NCBI GenBank assembly: GCA_002723035.1 | Contig: PBNH01000010.1 | Span: 4,720-52,691, forward strand | DNA: 47,972 bases | Reading direction: 5' to 3' | DNA from: Rhodobiaceae bacterium | GTDB taxonomy: Bacteria; Pseudomonadota; Alphaproteobacteria; MED-G09 | Shown: positions 8,627-38,159 of the stretch, piece by piece | Layout: each line of letters begins with the position of its first letter | Position numbering within the stretch: the first letter of the stretch is position 1 | Made by a program: the position numbers and the translations under genes | Notes under the pieces: generated by a model | Seen by the model: the letters and a program-made list of their open reading frames with translations, nothing else | The model's database searches: none | Told to the model about the DNA's origin: nothing

Positions 8627-9775
8627 TTGAGTCATCAGAGAAAAAAATTAGTAGATCTTGCCAAAAGATTGCTAAATCATAATTTAAATGGTTCTACGGA
8701 TCAAGCTGATGAAATTATGATTAAATCAGTTAATGATTATACTAATAATAATATTATTAGATCAGAAGTTAACAAAATTTTCTATGACCATCCCGTACCC
8801 ATAGCATTAAGTGCGGAACTTAAAAAAAATAATTCTTATAAAGCTTACACAGTAATTGATACGCCTTTACTAATAACAAGAGATGAAAATGGGGTTGTAA
8901 GAACTTTTATCAATATATGCAAGCATAGAGGTGCTCCTGTTTGCCCAGAAGGAAGTGGAAAAAAATCAAGATTTAACTGCACGTATCACGGATGGATGTA
9001 TGATAATAAGGGAAGTTTAGTTAATATTTTTAAATCAAATACTTTCGGTGATATTGATATAAAAAATATAAAATTAACCGAATTATTTTGTGAAGAAAAA
9101 TCCGGATTTATTTGGACATGCCTAAACCCGGATATTAATTATGATCTCTCTAAATGGATGAATGGATTTGACTCGGAACTGGATGATATAGACTTAAAAA
9201 ACTGGTATATTTTTAAAAGTACAACTCTAAATGGACCTAGATGGAAAATTTGTTGGGATGGTTATTTAGATGGTTACCATCATCATATGGTTCATCCTGA
9301 AACTGTCGGCAAAAACACAATTGTCAACCTTATTGCTCATGATACATATGGACCTCATCAAAGATTTGCCTTTGGCTTAAAAAACATTAACGAACTTGCT
9401 GAGATTGATGAGGAAGATTGGGAGCCTGAAAACCATATAAGGTTAATTCACTCAGTATTTCCAAATGGCTCAATTTCAGCAATTCAAAACCAACATTGTT
9501 TAGTGAGTATAGTTTTTCCAACTCCTGATTTACAAGGTACTACCACAACCCAATATATTTTATGTCTGAATGAACCTAAAACAAAAGAACAAATTAAAGA
9601 TGCAGAAGATTTTGCAGAATTAAGTAGAGCGGCTATAGTAGATGAAGATTATCCAATGAATTTCAAAATACAGGATTTTATAGACTCTAAGGCCAATAAA
9701 GAATTTTTATTTGGAAGAAATGAACCCATACAACAACATTATCATAAATGGGTAGATAAATTATCCTCAAAGTAA
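8627..9775 (+). CDS. Rieske non-haem iron oxygenase, alpha subunit
   Basis: A 382-aa oxygenase of the aromatic-ring-hydroxylating type. The Rieske centre is C-K-H-R-G with C-T-Y-H-G-W about 18 residues later. The mononuclear iron site is in DGYLDGYHHHMVHPE (Asp and two His of the facial triad), with DEDYPMN near the C-terminus for the last carboxylate region. The start is TTG at 8627, supported by AGAGGGG about 8 bp upstream; no in-frame ATG is available. No reductase or beta subunit is adjacent. The substrate is unknown, and O-demethylation or quaternary-amine oxidation are as likely as aromatic hydroxylation. A truncated cupin gene follows directly. Confidence 0.85.
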   Translation: MSHQRKKLVDLAKRLLNHNLNGSTDQADEIMIKSVNDYTNNNIIRSEVNKIFYDHPVPIALSAELKKNNSYKAYTVIDTPLLITRDENGVVRTFINICKHRGAPVCPEGSGKKSRFNCTYHGWMYDNKGSLVNIFKSNTFGDIDIKNIKLTELFCEEKSGFIWTCLNPDINYDLSKWMNGFDSELDDIDLKNWYIFKSTTLNGPRWKICWDGYLDGYHHHMVHPETVGKNTIVNLIAHDTYGPHQRFAFGLKNINELAEIDEEDWEPENHIRLIHSVFPNGSISAIQNQHCLVSIVFPTPDLQGTTTTQYILCLNEPKTKEQIKDAEDFAELSRAAIVDEDYPMNFKIQDFIDSKANKEFLFGRNEPIQQHYHKWVDKLSSK

Positions 9776-35492: not shown

Positions 35493-35599
35493 CAAACTAC
35501 ATTTTGAGAGGGAGTAATCCCTGCCAACCTGCAATAACCTGCGAAGGTGGTAACTTTAATGTGGCTTATTAGGCAAAAAAAGGTTTTTTCTCTCATTTG
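35493..35599 (+). ncRNA. Candidate SAM-I/SAM-IV-like riboswitch (upstream element of a tandem leader)
   Basis: A closing helix TGAGAG (35505-35510) / CTCTCA (35590-35595) can be extended by CAAA/TTTG. It encloses a hairpin GGGA-GTAA-TCCC (35510-35521) and a second hairpin whose arms CC(A)ACCT-GCA (35524-35533) and TGC-GA-AGGTGG (35540-35550) pair, followed by TAACTTT. The order CCC, GC(C)AACC, AGGTGGTAAC resembles the SAM-I/SAM-IV core (GCAACC ... GGTGCTAA). The kink-turn arm of SAM-I is absent, as in reduced marine variants. The class is inferred from memory plus the methionine genes downstream; the structure itself is read from the sequence. Confidence 0.45.
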
Positions 35600-35616
35600 T
35601 AAATATAGTTAAGTTT

Positions 35617-35690
35617 AGCTTCCTAAAGAAGCTGGGTATTTGATTTTCAGATTGTGCACCCTAGATTTCCTTAAAGCACTAAAGAGAGGA
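35617..35690 (+). promoter_or_regulatory. Candidate SAM-II/SAM-V-type pseudoknot riboswitch at the ompW ribosome-binding site
   Basis: A 6-bp hairpin AGCTTC/GAAGCT (35617-35633) is followed by an H-type pseudoknot. Stem 1 is GGGT (35634-35637) with ACCC (35658-35661); stem 2 is GTGC (35654-35657) with GCAC (35676-35679). The two stems abut, the first loop is U-rich, and the last loop ends TTAAA before GCAC. Directly after stem 2 comes TAAAGAGAGGA (35680-35690), containing the Shine-Dalgarno site of ompW. This topology, with GC(AC)TAAA next to the ribosome-binding site, is that of SAM-II/SAM-V. Ligand-bound folding would sequester the site and shut off translation (inference). Confidence 0.62.
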
Positions 35691-35694
35691 AAAA

Positions 35695-36366
35695 ATGAAA
35701 AAACAATTTTTTAAAAAAACCCTATCACTATTATCATCTTTGGTATTAGTTTTATTTATTTCTTTAACTCCGCTAAGCGTAATATCTCAAGAAGTAACTG
35801 CATTTAAAAGTGCTGGAAAATGGCTAGTCGGTCTTAAAGTTTTAAATTTAGATCCTGATGAAAAATCAGTAACTTCAATTGGCGGCGAAGCAAAAGTTGA
35901 TGATGATACTGTGCCAGAACTAGATATTAGATATTTTTTAACTGACAATATTGCTATCGAAGCAATTTTTGGGACCACTGAACATAGTGTAAAGGCTATT
36001 GGAACAGCTCTTGGGGATGTTAATTTAGGTACAGTAAAAGTTTTACCGCCTACATTTACTCTTCAATATCATTTCAATAGTGAAAGTAGATTCTTACCAT
36101 ATATTGGTGCTGGAATAAATTATACCTTTTTCTACGATGATAACCCTGGTGACGCGGTAGGTATTAGCTACAAGGATGAGGTTGGTTTTGCACTAAATGT
36201 AGGTTTTGACTATATTATTAATGAAAATAACTATTTTAATATAGATATCAAAAAATATAAGCTTTCAACTGACACAGTAATTGATGCTGGGCCAGCTGGT
36301 ATTGCTACTGCATCAGTAGACCTAGACCCAATAGCAGTAAGTATTGGCTATGGGTGGAGATTTTAA
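35695..36366 (+). CDS. ompW: OmpW-family outer-membrane beta-barrel protein
   Basis: A 223-aa protein with a signal peptide (residues 1 to about 32, cleavage near SQ-E) and a small barrel. It has GKWLVGLKVLNLDPD at the start, ELDIRYFLTDNIAIEAIFGTTEH, TLQYHFNSESRFLPYIGAGINYTFF, and a C-terminal Phe after ISIGYGWR-type strands (ends Gly-Trp-Arg-Phe). These are OmpW landmarks. OmpW forms an eight-stranded channel for hydrophobic compounds. The ATG is 4 bp after the AGAGAGGA site contained in the pseudoknot leader. The gap to metX is 54 bp with no terminator, so it probably heads an ompW-metX-metW transcript. Confidence 0.9.
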   Translation: MKKQFFKKTLSLLSSLVLVLFISLTPLSVISQEVTAFKSAGKWLVGLKVLNLDPDEKSVTSIGGEAKVDDDTVPELDIRYFLTDNIAIEAIFGTTEHSVKAIGTALGDVNLGTVKVLPPTFTLQYHFNSESRFLPYIGAGINYTFFYDDNPGDAVGISYKDEVGFALNVGFDYIINENNYFNIDIKKYKLSTDTVIDAGPAGIATASVDLDPIAVSIGYGWRF

Positions 36367-36420: not shown

Positions 36421-37554
36421 ATGAATACTGATCAAAATAAGCTTCCATGTTCATACTTTAGAGATACTAAACCTCTTTTACTAGAGAATGGAACAACTAT
36501 AGATGAGCTTACTGTAGCCTATGAAAGCTATGGTAAGCTCAATCAAGATAAATCAAATGCAATAATAATTTGTCATGCCCTTTCTGGCGATCAGTTTTTA
36601 GCGAGTAAAAATCCTTTAACTAATAAAGATGGTTGGTGGAATAGGATGGTTGGTAGTGGAAAACCAATCGACACTGATAAATATTTTGTGATTTGTGCAA
36701 ATGTTCTTGGTGGCTGCCTAGGATCTACCGGACCTACCTCGATAAATCCATCTACCGGCGAAGAGTACGGACTAAATTTTCCAGTTATAACTATTTCCGA
36801 CATGGTTAATGCACAAATGAGACTAATTCAGTACTTAGAAATTGATAAACTCTTATCAGTTATTGGAGGGTCAATGGGTGGAATGCAAGTTCTTGAGTGG
36901 GCGGCTTCTTATCCATCTAGTATTCTCTCTGCGATTCCAATTGCCACCTCTTCTAGGCATACAGCGCAAAATATTGCATTTCATGAACTTGGGAGACAAG
37001 CTATAATGGCTGATCCAGATTGGAGCGGTGGTAACTATATAAAAGTTGGCACTAATCCTAACAAAGGATTGTCAATTGCAAGAATGACAGCTCATGTTAC
37101 TTATTTATCAGAGGCTTCTCTTACGAAAAAATTTGGAAGAAGACTTCAAGATAAAGAAGAAATAAGCTTTGGATTTGATGCTGATTTTCAAATCGAAAGT
37201 TATTTAAGGCATCAAGGGCTAACATTTGTGGATAGATTTGATGCCAACTCTTATCTTTATATTACAAGAGCTATGGATTATTTTGATTTAGAAAAAACTC
37301 ATAAAAAAAGTTTAACAGAAATTTTTGAAAATACTGATATTAAGTTCCTAATAGCATCATTTACTGGAGATTGGCTGTATCCACCATCTGAAAATTTAAT
37401 GATTGTTAGGGCATTAAGTGCAGGAGGAGCTGATGTTAGTTTTGTTAATATTGAGTCTGACAAAGGTCATGATGCTTTTCTTTTAGAAGAGCCAGAATTT
37501 GACGATGCAATGAGAGGGTTTATTAATTCAATTTCTATAGAGGCGAAAATATAA
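36421..37554 (+). CDS. metX: Homoserine O-acyltransferase MetX
   Basis: A 377-aa alpha/beta-hydrolase that acylates homoserine, the entry step to methionine. The nucleophile is S151 in IGGSMGGMQVLEW. The acid and base are expected in DWLYPP and GHDAFLLE. CHALSGD and GGCLGSTGP are conserved. Proteobacterial MetX enzymes paired with MetW often use succinyl-CoA rather than acetyl-CoA, so the acyl donor is open. The stop shares a base with the metW ATG. Confidence 0.93.
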   Translation: MNTDQNKLPCSYFRDTKPLLLENGTTIDELTVAYESYGKLNQDKSNAIIICHALSGDQFLASKNPLTNKDGWWNRMVGSGKPIDTDKYFVICANVLGGCLGSTGPTSINPSTGEEYGLNFPVITISDMVNAQMRLIQYLEIDKLLSVIGGSMGGMQVLEWAASYPSSILSAIPIATSSRHTAQNIAFHELGRQAIMADPDWSGGNYIKVGTNPNKGLSIARMTAHVTYLSEASLTKKFGRRLQDKEEISFGFDADFQIESYLRHQGLTFVDRFDANSYLYITRAMDYFDLEKTHKKSLTEIFENTDIKFLIASFTGDWLYPPSENLMIVRALSAGGADVSFVNIESDKGHDAFLLEEPEFDDAMRGFINSISIEAKI

Positions 37555-38159
37555 TGAATAACAATAGAGCTGATCTTGAATTAATAACATCTCTCGTAGA
37601 CGAAAGGACAAGAATCCTTGATGTTGGTTGTGGAAATGGAGAGTTATTACAATCCTTAAAAGATAAAAAAAGTATCAAAGGTCAAGGTCTTGAGCTTAAA
37701 CAAGAAAGAGTTAATCAATGCGTTTCAAGAGGTTTATCAGCAATTCAAGGAAATGCTGATAGCGACCTCAGCCTCTATCCAAATCAATCATTTGATTGCG
37801 TAATTTTAAGCCAAACAATTCAAGCAACTAGTAACCCAAAAAATATTTTAATCGAATTAGTTAGAATTGGTAAAAAAGCAATTGTCTCAATACCAAATTT
37901 TGGCTTTTGGAAAGTAAGATTTGGCTTTGCTGCTCATGGCAAAATGCCTATTACAAAGAAACTTTCAAATAATTGGTATGATACTCCAAATATTCACTTG
38001 TGTAGTATACTAGATTTTGTTGATTTATGTAAGATCCTGAATATTAAAATTGAAAAAACAATTGTTCTTTCATCAAATAAAACCAAATCATTTAATGGTT
38101 ATCCTAATAATTGGTCAAATCTTTTTGGAGAAGAAGCAATTTTTTTGATAAAAAGTTAA
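37554..38159 (+). CDS. metW: MetW, methionine biosynthesis methyltransferase-fold protein
   Basis: A 201-aa SAM-binding Rossmann protein. Motif I is ILDVGCGNGELLQSL. Then come GLELKQERVNQCVSRGLSAIQGNAD, DCVILSQTIQAT, and the MetW-specific IVSIPNFGFWKVR with PITKKL..WYDTPNIH. MetW supports MetX activity in proteobacteria, and the two overlap by one base here. It overlaps the convergent methyltransferase gene by 4 bp. Confidence 0.93.
   Translation: MNNNRADLELITSLVDERTRILDVGCGNGELLQSLKDKKSIKGQGLELKQERVNQCVSRGLSAIQGNADSDLSLYPNQSFDCVILSQTIQATSNPKNILIELVRIGKKAIVSIPNFGFWKVRFGFAAHGKMPITKKLSNNWYDTPNIHLCSILDFVDLCKILNIKIEKTIVLSSNKTKSFNGYPNNWSNLFGEEAIFLIKS

Follow-up and report, generated by a model that had tools for sequence, protein, structure and literature searches.

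The window analysed here is a 47,972 nt stretch of a Rhodobiaceae bacterium assembly (GCA_002723035.1, 0.97 Mb, 61% complete; contig PBNH01000010.1). It contains an operon encoding an OmpW-family outer-membrane beta-barrel protein, a metX-like homoserine acyltransferase and MetW (Table 1). The second gene was named metX because of its PF00561 fold and the adjacent metW. The two overlap by 1 base, and 54 bases separate ompW from metX. A sequence-only reading of this DNA had placed the leader ahead of an outer-membrane gene and metX-metW, which is borne out by the Pfam matches of all three genes. It had also seen two successive structured RNAs in the leader, probably tandem SAM riboswitches of different classes. 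Both were recovered at these positions by Rfam covariance models, as SAM-I/IV (RF01725) and SAM-V (RF01826), and both scored above their cut-offs, the margin for SAM-V being narrow in the window. The first element had been likened to the SAM-I/SAM-IV core; its class is the SAM-I/IV variant. Of the SAM-II/SAM-V topology suggested for the second element only SAM-V stands: SAM-II was rejected, since a permissive scan gave no match to it in the leader even at E ≤ 10. The same scan of the leader region gave no further credible match beyond SAM-I/IV and SAM-V.

Table 1. Features of the ompW-metX-metW leader and operon (positions within the window).
Feature	Position	Strand	Evidence or remark
SAM-I/IV riboswitch aptamer (RF01725)	35494-35590	+	cmscan 59.0 bits, cut-off 41.1
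SAM-I/IV P1	ACAUU 35499-35503 / AAUGU 35558-35562	+	5 bp
SAM-I/IV P2	GGGA 35510-35513 / UCCC 35518-35521	+	
SAM-I/IV P3	35524-35550	+	
SAM-I/IV P4	about 35563-35574	+	
SAM-I/IV probable pseudoknot	P3 loop ACC 35537-35539 with tail GGU 35582-35584	+	
Switching linker strand (putative)	35585-35610	+	core CUCUCA 35590-35595; duplex energies, shuffles, permutation test, ensemble calculation
P0 hairpin	35614-35636	+	AGCUUC 35617-35622 / GAAGCU 35628-35633; weak terminator-like
SAM-V riboswitch aptamer (RF01826)	35625-35692	+	cmscan 44.1 bits, cut-off 41
SAM-V pseudoknot stem	GGGU 35634-35637 / ACCC 35658-35661	+	
SAM-V third strand	UUU 35639-35641	+	
SAM-V second stem	UUGUGC 35652-35657 / GCAC 35676-35679 plus AA 35681-35682	+	GUGC strand 35654-35657
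ompW Shine-Dalgarno GAGAGG	35684-35689	+	sequence; proposed target of both switches
ompW-family outer-membrane beta-barrel gene	35695-36366	+	PF03922, E 8.1e-47; first gene of the operon
metX-like homoserine acyltransferase gene	36421-37554	+	PF00561, E 3.1e-21; alpha/beta hydrolase
metW	37554-38159	+	PF07021, E 1.6e-74

The SAM-I/IV element of the window aligns to the RF01725 model over its full length (1-99) and shows the P1-P4 architecture. Its P2 hairpin is short and has a single bulged base; P2 of the SAM-I/IV class is without the internal loop found in SAM-I and SAM-IV (PMC2864571). P1 and P4 differ in sequence among lineages with the pairing kept, and the ACC(G)/(C)GGU strands of the probable pseudoknot are retained in 18 of 18 leaders.

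The SAM-V element forms the H-type pseudoknot that had been described from the sequence (stems GGGT/ACCC and GTGC/GCAC), and the Shine-Dalgarno (SD) sequence of ompW comes next. GAGAGG is identical in 17 of the 18 tandem leaders (GAGAGGG in the remaining one) and lies directly 3′ of A35683, one of the predicted SAM contacts. The metY SAM-V riboswitch turns translation OFF and is followed immediately by the SD; its SAM contacts are U8, U9, U10, A18, U19, U20, G21, U47, A48, A49 and A50 (PMC6061858). Mapped by hand, these nucleotides correspond to U35639-U35641, A35651, U35652, U35653, G35654, U35680 and A35681-A35683, and all of them are present. When 24 distinct SAM-V sequences of this order and SAR11 were aligned, all contact columns except that of A18 were invariant. 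In this alignment 99.7% of cells were paired. The 35 double-change cells were reached in 0 of 500 shuffles, a control that kinship among sequences can outscore; sliding the pairing partners, which preserves relatedness, abolished the covariation signal. Two stems carry the signal, the inner one and GGGU/ACCC of the pseudoknot; the GUGC/GCAC stem is invariant and hence uninformative. With a model hit for each element and a covarying pseudoknot, the outcome that the sequence-only reading had named as its refutation did not occur.

Both elements are present in the same order in 17 of 18 genomes of the window's order, and the eighteenth genome, which is 67% complete, has neither. SAM-I/IV was over its cut-off in 17 of these 18 genomes and SAM-V in 13 (17 at E ≤ 0.01), with a spacing of roughly 30-60 nt between them. 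Directly behind the tandem ompW was found in 17 of 17 genomes, metX is present in all 16 genomes whose contig continues far enough, and metW is also present in the 8 of 8 relatives read with long flanks. A chance origin of the tandem was rejected, as the arrangement is kept order-wide. Since covariance models, gene context, order-wide conservation and pseudoknot covariation agree, the ompW-metX-metW leader is made up of two unrelated SAM riboswitch folds, SAM-I/IV followed by SAM-V, for which ligand binding is predicted.

Further copies of both classes were seen in the order. A second tandem, again SAM-I/IV then SAM-V, precedes a fatty-acid desaturase-like gene in genome G008 (L196, G008:C62, about 8760-8972, minus strand); its SAM-V half is under the Rfam cut-off, was missed by thresholds alone and was found by motif. 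Solo copies of SAM-I/IV (L197:4704-4824, plus strand, G015:C5; L198:8704-8825, minus strand, G016:C2) stand before an ORF of 64-67 aa without known family, and both carry a strong terminator-like hairpin that comes with seven consecutive U. Behind the solo copy and the short ORF of G015 are genes for a C-5 DNA methylase and a MvaI/BcnI-type restriction enzyme; it would be uncommon for a restriction-modification locus to be under SAM control. Solo SAM-V copies (L200:4637-5980, plus strand, G011:C1; L022, L023, L024, L025) directly precede the gene for a protein (MTTLNLTAN...) that is about 428 aa long and matched no Pfam family. A weak SAM-V match elsewhere in the window's genome (G000:C13:2796-2847, L002; 19.9 bits, E 0.447) is probably due to chance.

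None of the 18 tandem leaders lacks the P0 hairpin between the two aptamers, and its stem shows compensatory changes. U-G pairs can lengthen it into the SAM-V GGG, and it was not evident ahead of the solo SAM-V copies read. It was scored as terminator-like and is the sole such hairpin between the aptamers, but its stem contains three G-C pairs, and its U-run is interrupted. P0 could be the site of the first switch: SAM-I/IV would trigger termination there, the U-tract being the 5′ strand of SAM-V (UAUUUGAUUUU), and SAM-V would act on translation, a bi-mechanism that has been predicted for SAM-II/SAM-V tandems (PMC9481103). The strong terminator-like hairpins of the two solo SAM-I/IV copies speak for such a mechanism, and because of them transcriptional control by this class is likely to occur in the order. 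In the tandem, however, the core of P0 has little stability (−5.9 to −11.5 kcal/mol); its U-run comes after GGG and is interrupted, and genus g2 has an even shorter one (UAUUUGAUGUU). In addition, P0 lies outside the switching linker strand, and no antiterminator overlapping P0 was found. We regard termination at P0 as the main rival to translational control by both switches, and as unlikely.

The linker strand downstream of the first aptamer is complementary to the 5′ half of this aptamer (35495-35515, comprising the 5′ strand of P1, J1/2 and the 5′ strand of P2) and also to the SD region (35684-35694). The sequence-only reading had described an enclosed fold from 35505 to 35595. The helix that closes it, UGAGAG (35505-35510) with CUCUCA (35590-35595), exists; it is not P1 of the aptamer. 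As it takes J1/2 and part of P2 from the aptamer, it represents a competing state that would disrupt the aptamer. This anti-aptamer helix is retained with changed sequence in other lineages (CGAGAGG/CCUCUCG in G015, AUUAAGAAA/UUUCUUAAU in genus g2), and the linker of the second G008 tandem has 13 perfect pairs (UUACAUUUUGAGA/UCUCAAAAUGUAA). In a lineage permutation test the pairing of each 5′ arm with its own linker was matched by 4 of 720 permutations, identity included, compared to 334 of 720 for the SAM-V body as negative control. The P1 strands, tried as positive control, were uninformative since the 5-bp P1 hardly varies.

Ensemble folding was applied to the modelled transcript up to P0 for 18 leaders at 20 °C, with shuffled linkers as control. 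P1 did not exceed a probability of 0.03 in any of the 18 leaders. The anti-aptamer helix reached a mean of 0.63 versus 0.13 for shuffled linkers (0 of 40), although it was not significant individually in G001, G003 and G016. Forcing the aptamer cost 2.8-12.7 kcal/mol in the 18 transcripts, before ligand and pseudoknot energies. These values would also fit a leader in which the linker masks the SAM-I/IV aptamer and SAM-V alone is active, and a masking linker has been reported experimentally for SAM-II in a SAM-II/SAM-V tandem (PMC11508383). A working switch, however, is expected to have such alternative helices, and retention of the aptamer core in three genera, as well as in the second tandem of G008, argues for its use; we consider masking improbable. 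Rho-dependent termination in the untranslated leader, where SAM binding would expose the linker for Rho to load on, would agree with the lack of a clean intrinsic terminator between the aptamers and with the pyrimidine-rich linker near the aptamer in many leaders, but several linkers are A/U-rich with few C, and this explanation is very improbable.

When the aptamer was forced, pairing between linker and SD had a mean of 0.80 versus 0.34 for shuffled linkers (0 of 40), and the increase on forcing was 0.29 versus 0.13 (0 of 40). The accompanying drop in SD accessibility had the expected direction and was not significant (0.15 versus 0.11, 3 of 40). For the window alone the equilibrium model has a closed SD in either state. 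The isolated linker-SD duplex was above chance only in the window's own clade of genus g1; a second clade gave weaker support, and in genus g2, G017 and G008 it was no better than chance. In genus g2 both J1/2 and the linker have changed, and linker-SD complementarity is at chance level there. J1/2 and the SD share GAGAG, so that the two complementarities are not independent; isolated linker-SD complementarity was rejected as the conserved role of the linker.

With moderate confidence we propose that two SAM OFF riboswitches repress ompW-metX-metW at one shared SD, both via translation. A shared translational target is suggested because the aptamer and the SD are alternative partners of the linker strand; the GAGAG common to J1/2 and the SD weakens this double translational reading. 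Without SAM, the linker would invade P1, J1/2 and P2 of the SAM-I/IV aptamer. With SAM, the aptamer would retain its 5′ half, and the freed pyrimidine strand would pair with the ompW SD and close it. SAM-V, which lies between this anti-SD strand and the SD, would shut the same SD from the other side on SAM binding. At plentiful SAM, SAM-I/IV and then SAM-V would repress the operon; both switches would act on translation initiation, and metX-metW would follow by coupling or polarity. Because the equilibrium model of the window closes the SD in both states, the co-transcriptional order must matter, and the translation step of the first switch would rely on co-transcriptional folding. The P0 hairpin has no role in this model. 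The sequence-only reading had divided the work, with the first element perhaps acting on transcription and the second on translation. The latter part agrees with SAM-V; for the first element no convincing terminator was found, and the linker pairing points to translation.

In other alphaproteobacteria a strict pattern search found an anti-SD strand in a hairpin with the SD just before the ATG in 7 of 15 SAM-I/IV leaders (L174-L176, L178, L179, L184, L187), and this strand also matches the 5′ half of the aptamer over 5-11 bases. The tandem shares with these single riboswitches a downstream strand that matches the aptamer 5′ half and can pair with the SD. The single leaders have a compact anti-SD/SD hairpin, whereas P0 and the whole SAM-V lie between the two strands in the tandem. 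The tandem looks like their SAM-I/IV platform into which P0 and SAM-V have been placed, separating the anti-SD from the SD. We tentatively suggest that SAM-V may be nested in the expression platform of SAM-I/IV, and that two unrelated SAM folds may lock one ribosome-binding site in turn throughout the order.

A survey of tandem riboswitches counted 149 SAM-II/SAM-V tandems, 7 of SAM-II followed by SAM-I/IV and 2 of SAM-I/IV followed by SAM-II (PMC9481103); the SAM-I/IV and SAM-V pair is not among its tandems. It was also not found in passages of a paper from 2025 (PMC12452182) that deals with contiguous riboswitches and treats the SAM classes as one. Our literature search found nothing on this tandem, an earlier mention in Poiata et al. 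2009 (the founding SAM-V paper) or in supplements being possible, and nothing on PS1/OCS116 riboswitches or on OmpW under a SAM riboswitch. Both aptamer classes are known; their pairing and its order-wide fixation appear to be unreported, and the nested double translational lock is our hypothesis.

The tandem resembles the SAM-II/SAM-V tandems (PMC9481103, PMC5069961, PMC11508383) in having two unrelated SAM aptamers with SAM-V second and adjoining the SD, and in both cases methionine genes are controlled in streamlined marine alphaproteobacteria without sulfate assimilation. It differs in that the first aptamer is SAM-I/IV, the target is ompW-metX-metW, no clear terminator lies between the aptamers and the first switch is probably translational. 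With the tandems of SAM-II and SAM-I/IV (PMC9481103; 7 with SAM-II first, 2 with SAM-I/IV first) it has in common that SAM-I/IV is joined with another SAM class, the partner being SAM-II there and SAM-V here. Compared to the crystal structure of the metY SAM-V (PMC6061858), the H-type pseudoknot, all SAM-contact nucleotides and the SD immediately 3′ are the same, while the stem is GGGU/ACCC instead of AGGC/GCCU and the element is preceded by SAM-I/IV and P0.

Among 385 genomes of the class, SAM-V is limited to this order and one other family, which we take to be SAR11 because its SAM-V copies precede metY-like and methyltransferase genes. SAM-V was found in 87 of 197 genomes of the SAR11 order, and among 398 genomes across the phylum in the window's own genome only. 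SAM-I/IV occurs in 35 of the 385 genomes of the class and, with strict filters, in 0 of the 197 of the SAR11 order. As SAM-V was found in two groups only and SAM-I/IV in no SAR11 genome, the pair belongs, on these samples, to the window's order. SAM-II is present in 14 of the 18 genomes of this order, and in 5 of 5 loci read (L168-L172) it lies ahead of a metY-like gene, with metX under SAM-I/IV and SAM-V. In SAR11, SAM-V stands before metY and SAM-II before metX (PMC2704228, PMC5069961), so that the allocation is reversed: in this order SAM-II precedes the metY-like gene, and SAM-V, together with SAM-I/IV, precedes ompW-metX.

Of the order's 18 genomes none gave a match to the sulfite reductase family (among 14 control genomes, 11 were positive), and one gave a PAPS-reductase-family match, which points to a lack of assimilatory sulfate reduction. 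For this reason bacteria of this order, like SAR11, probably need reduced organic sulfur. The order-wide link between OmpW and SAM control suggests a role of OmpW in uptake of organic sulfur, and we speculate that the OmpW barrel, together with metX-metW under SAM control, serves this uptake. The apparently unreported pairing joins a short list of same-ligand tandem riboswitches, extends the range of SAM-V beyond SAR11, and suggests a further group of streamlined marine bacteria without sulfate assimilation that has double SAM control of methionine synthesis. If one SD is indeed shared, the leader would be a testable system for the need of two sensors per ligand, where the gain may be a steeper response, a broader range of concentrations, or two decisions, one early and one late.
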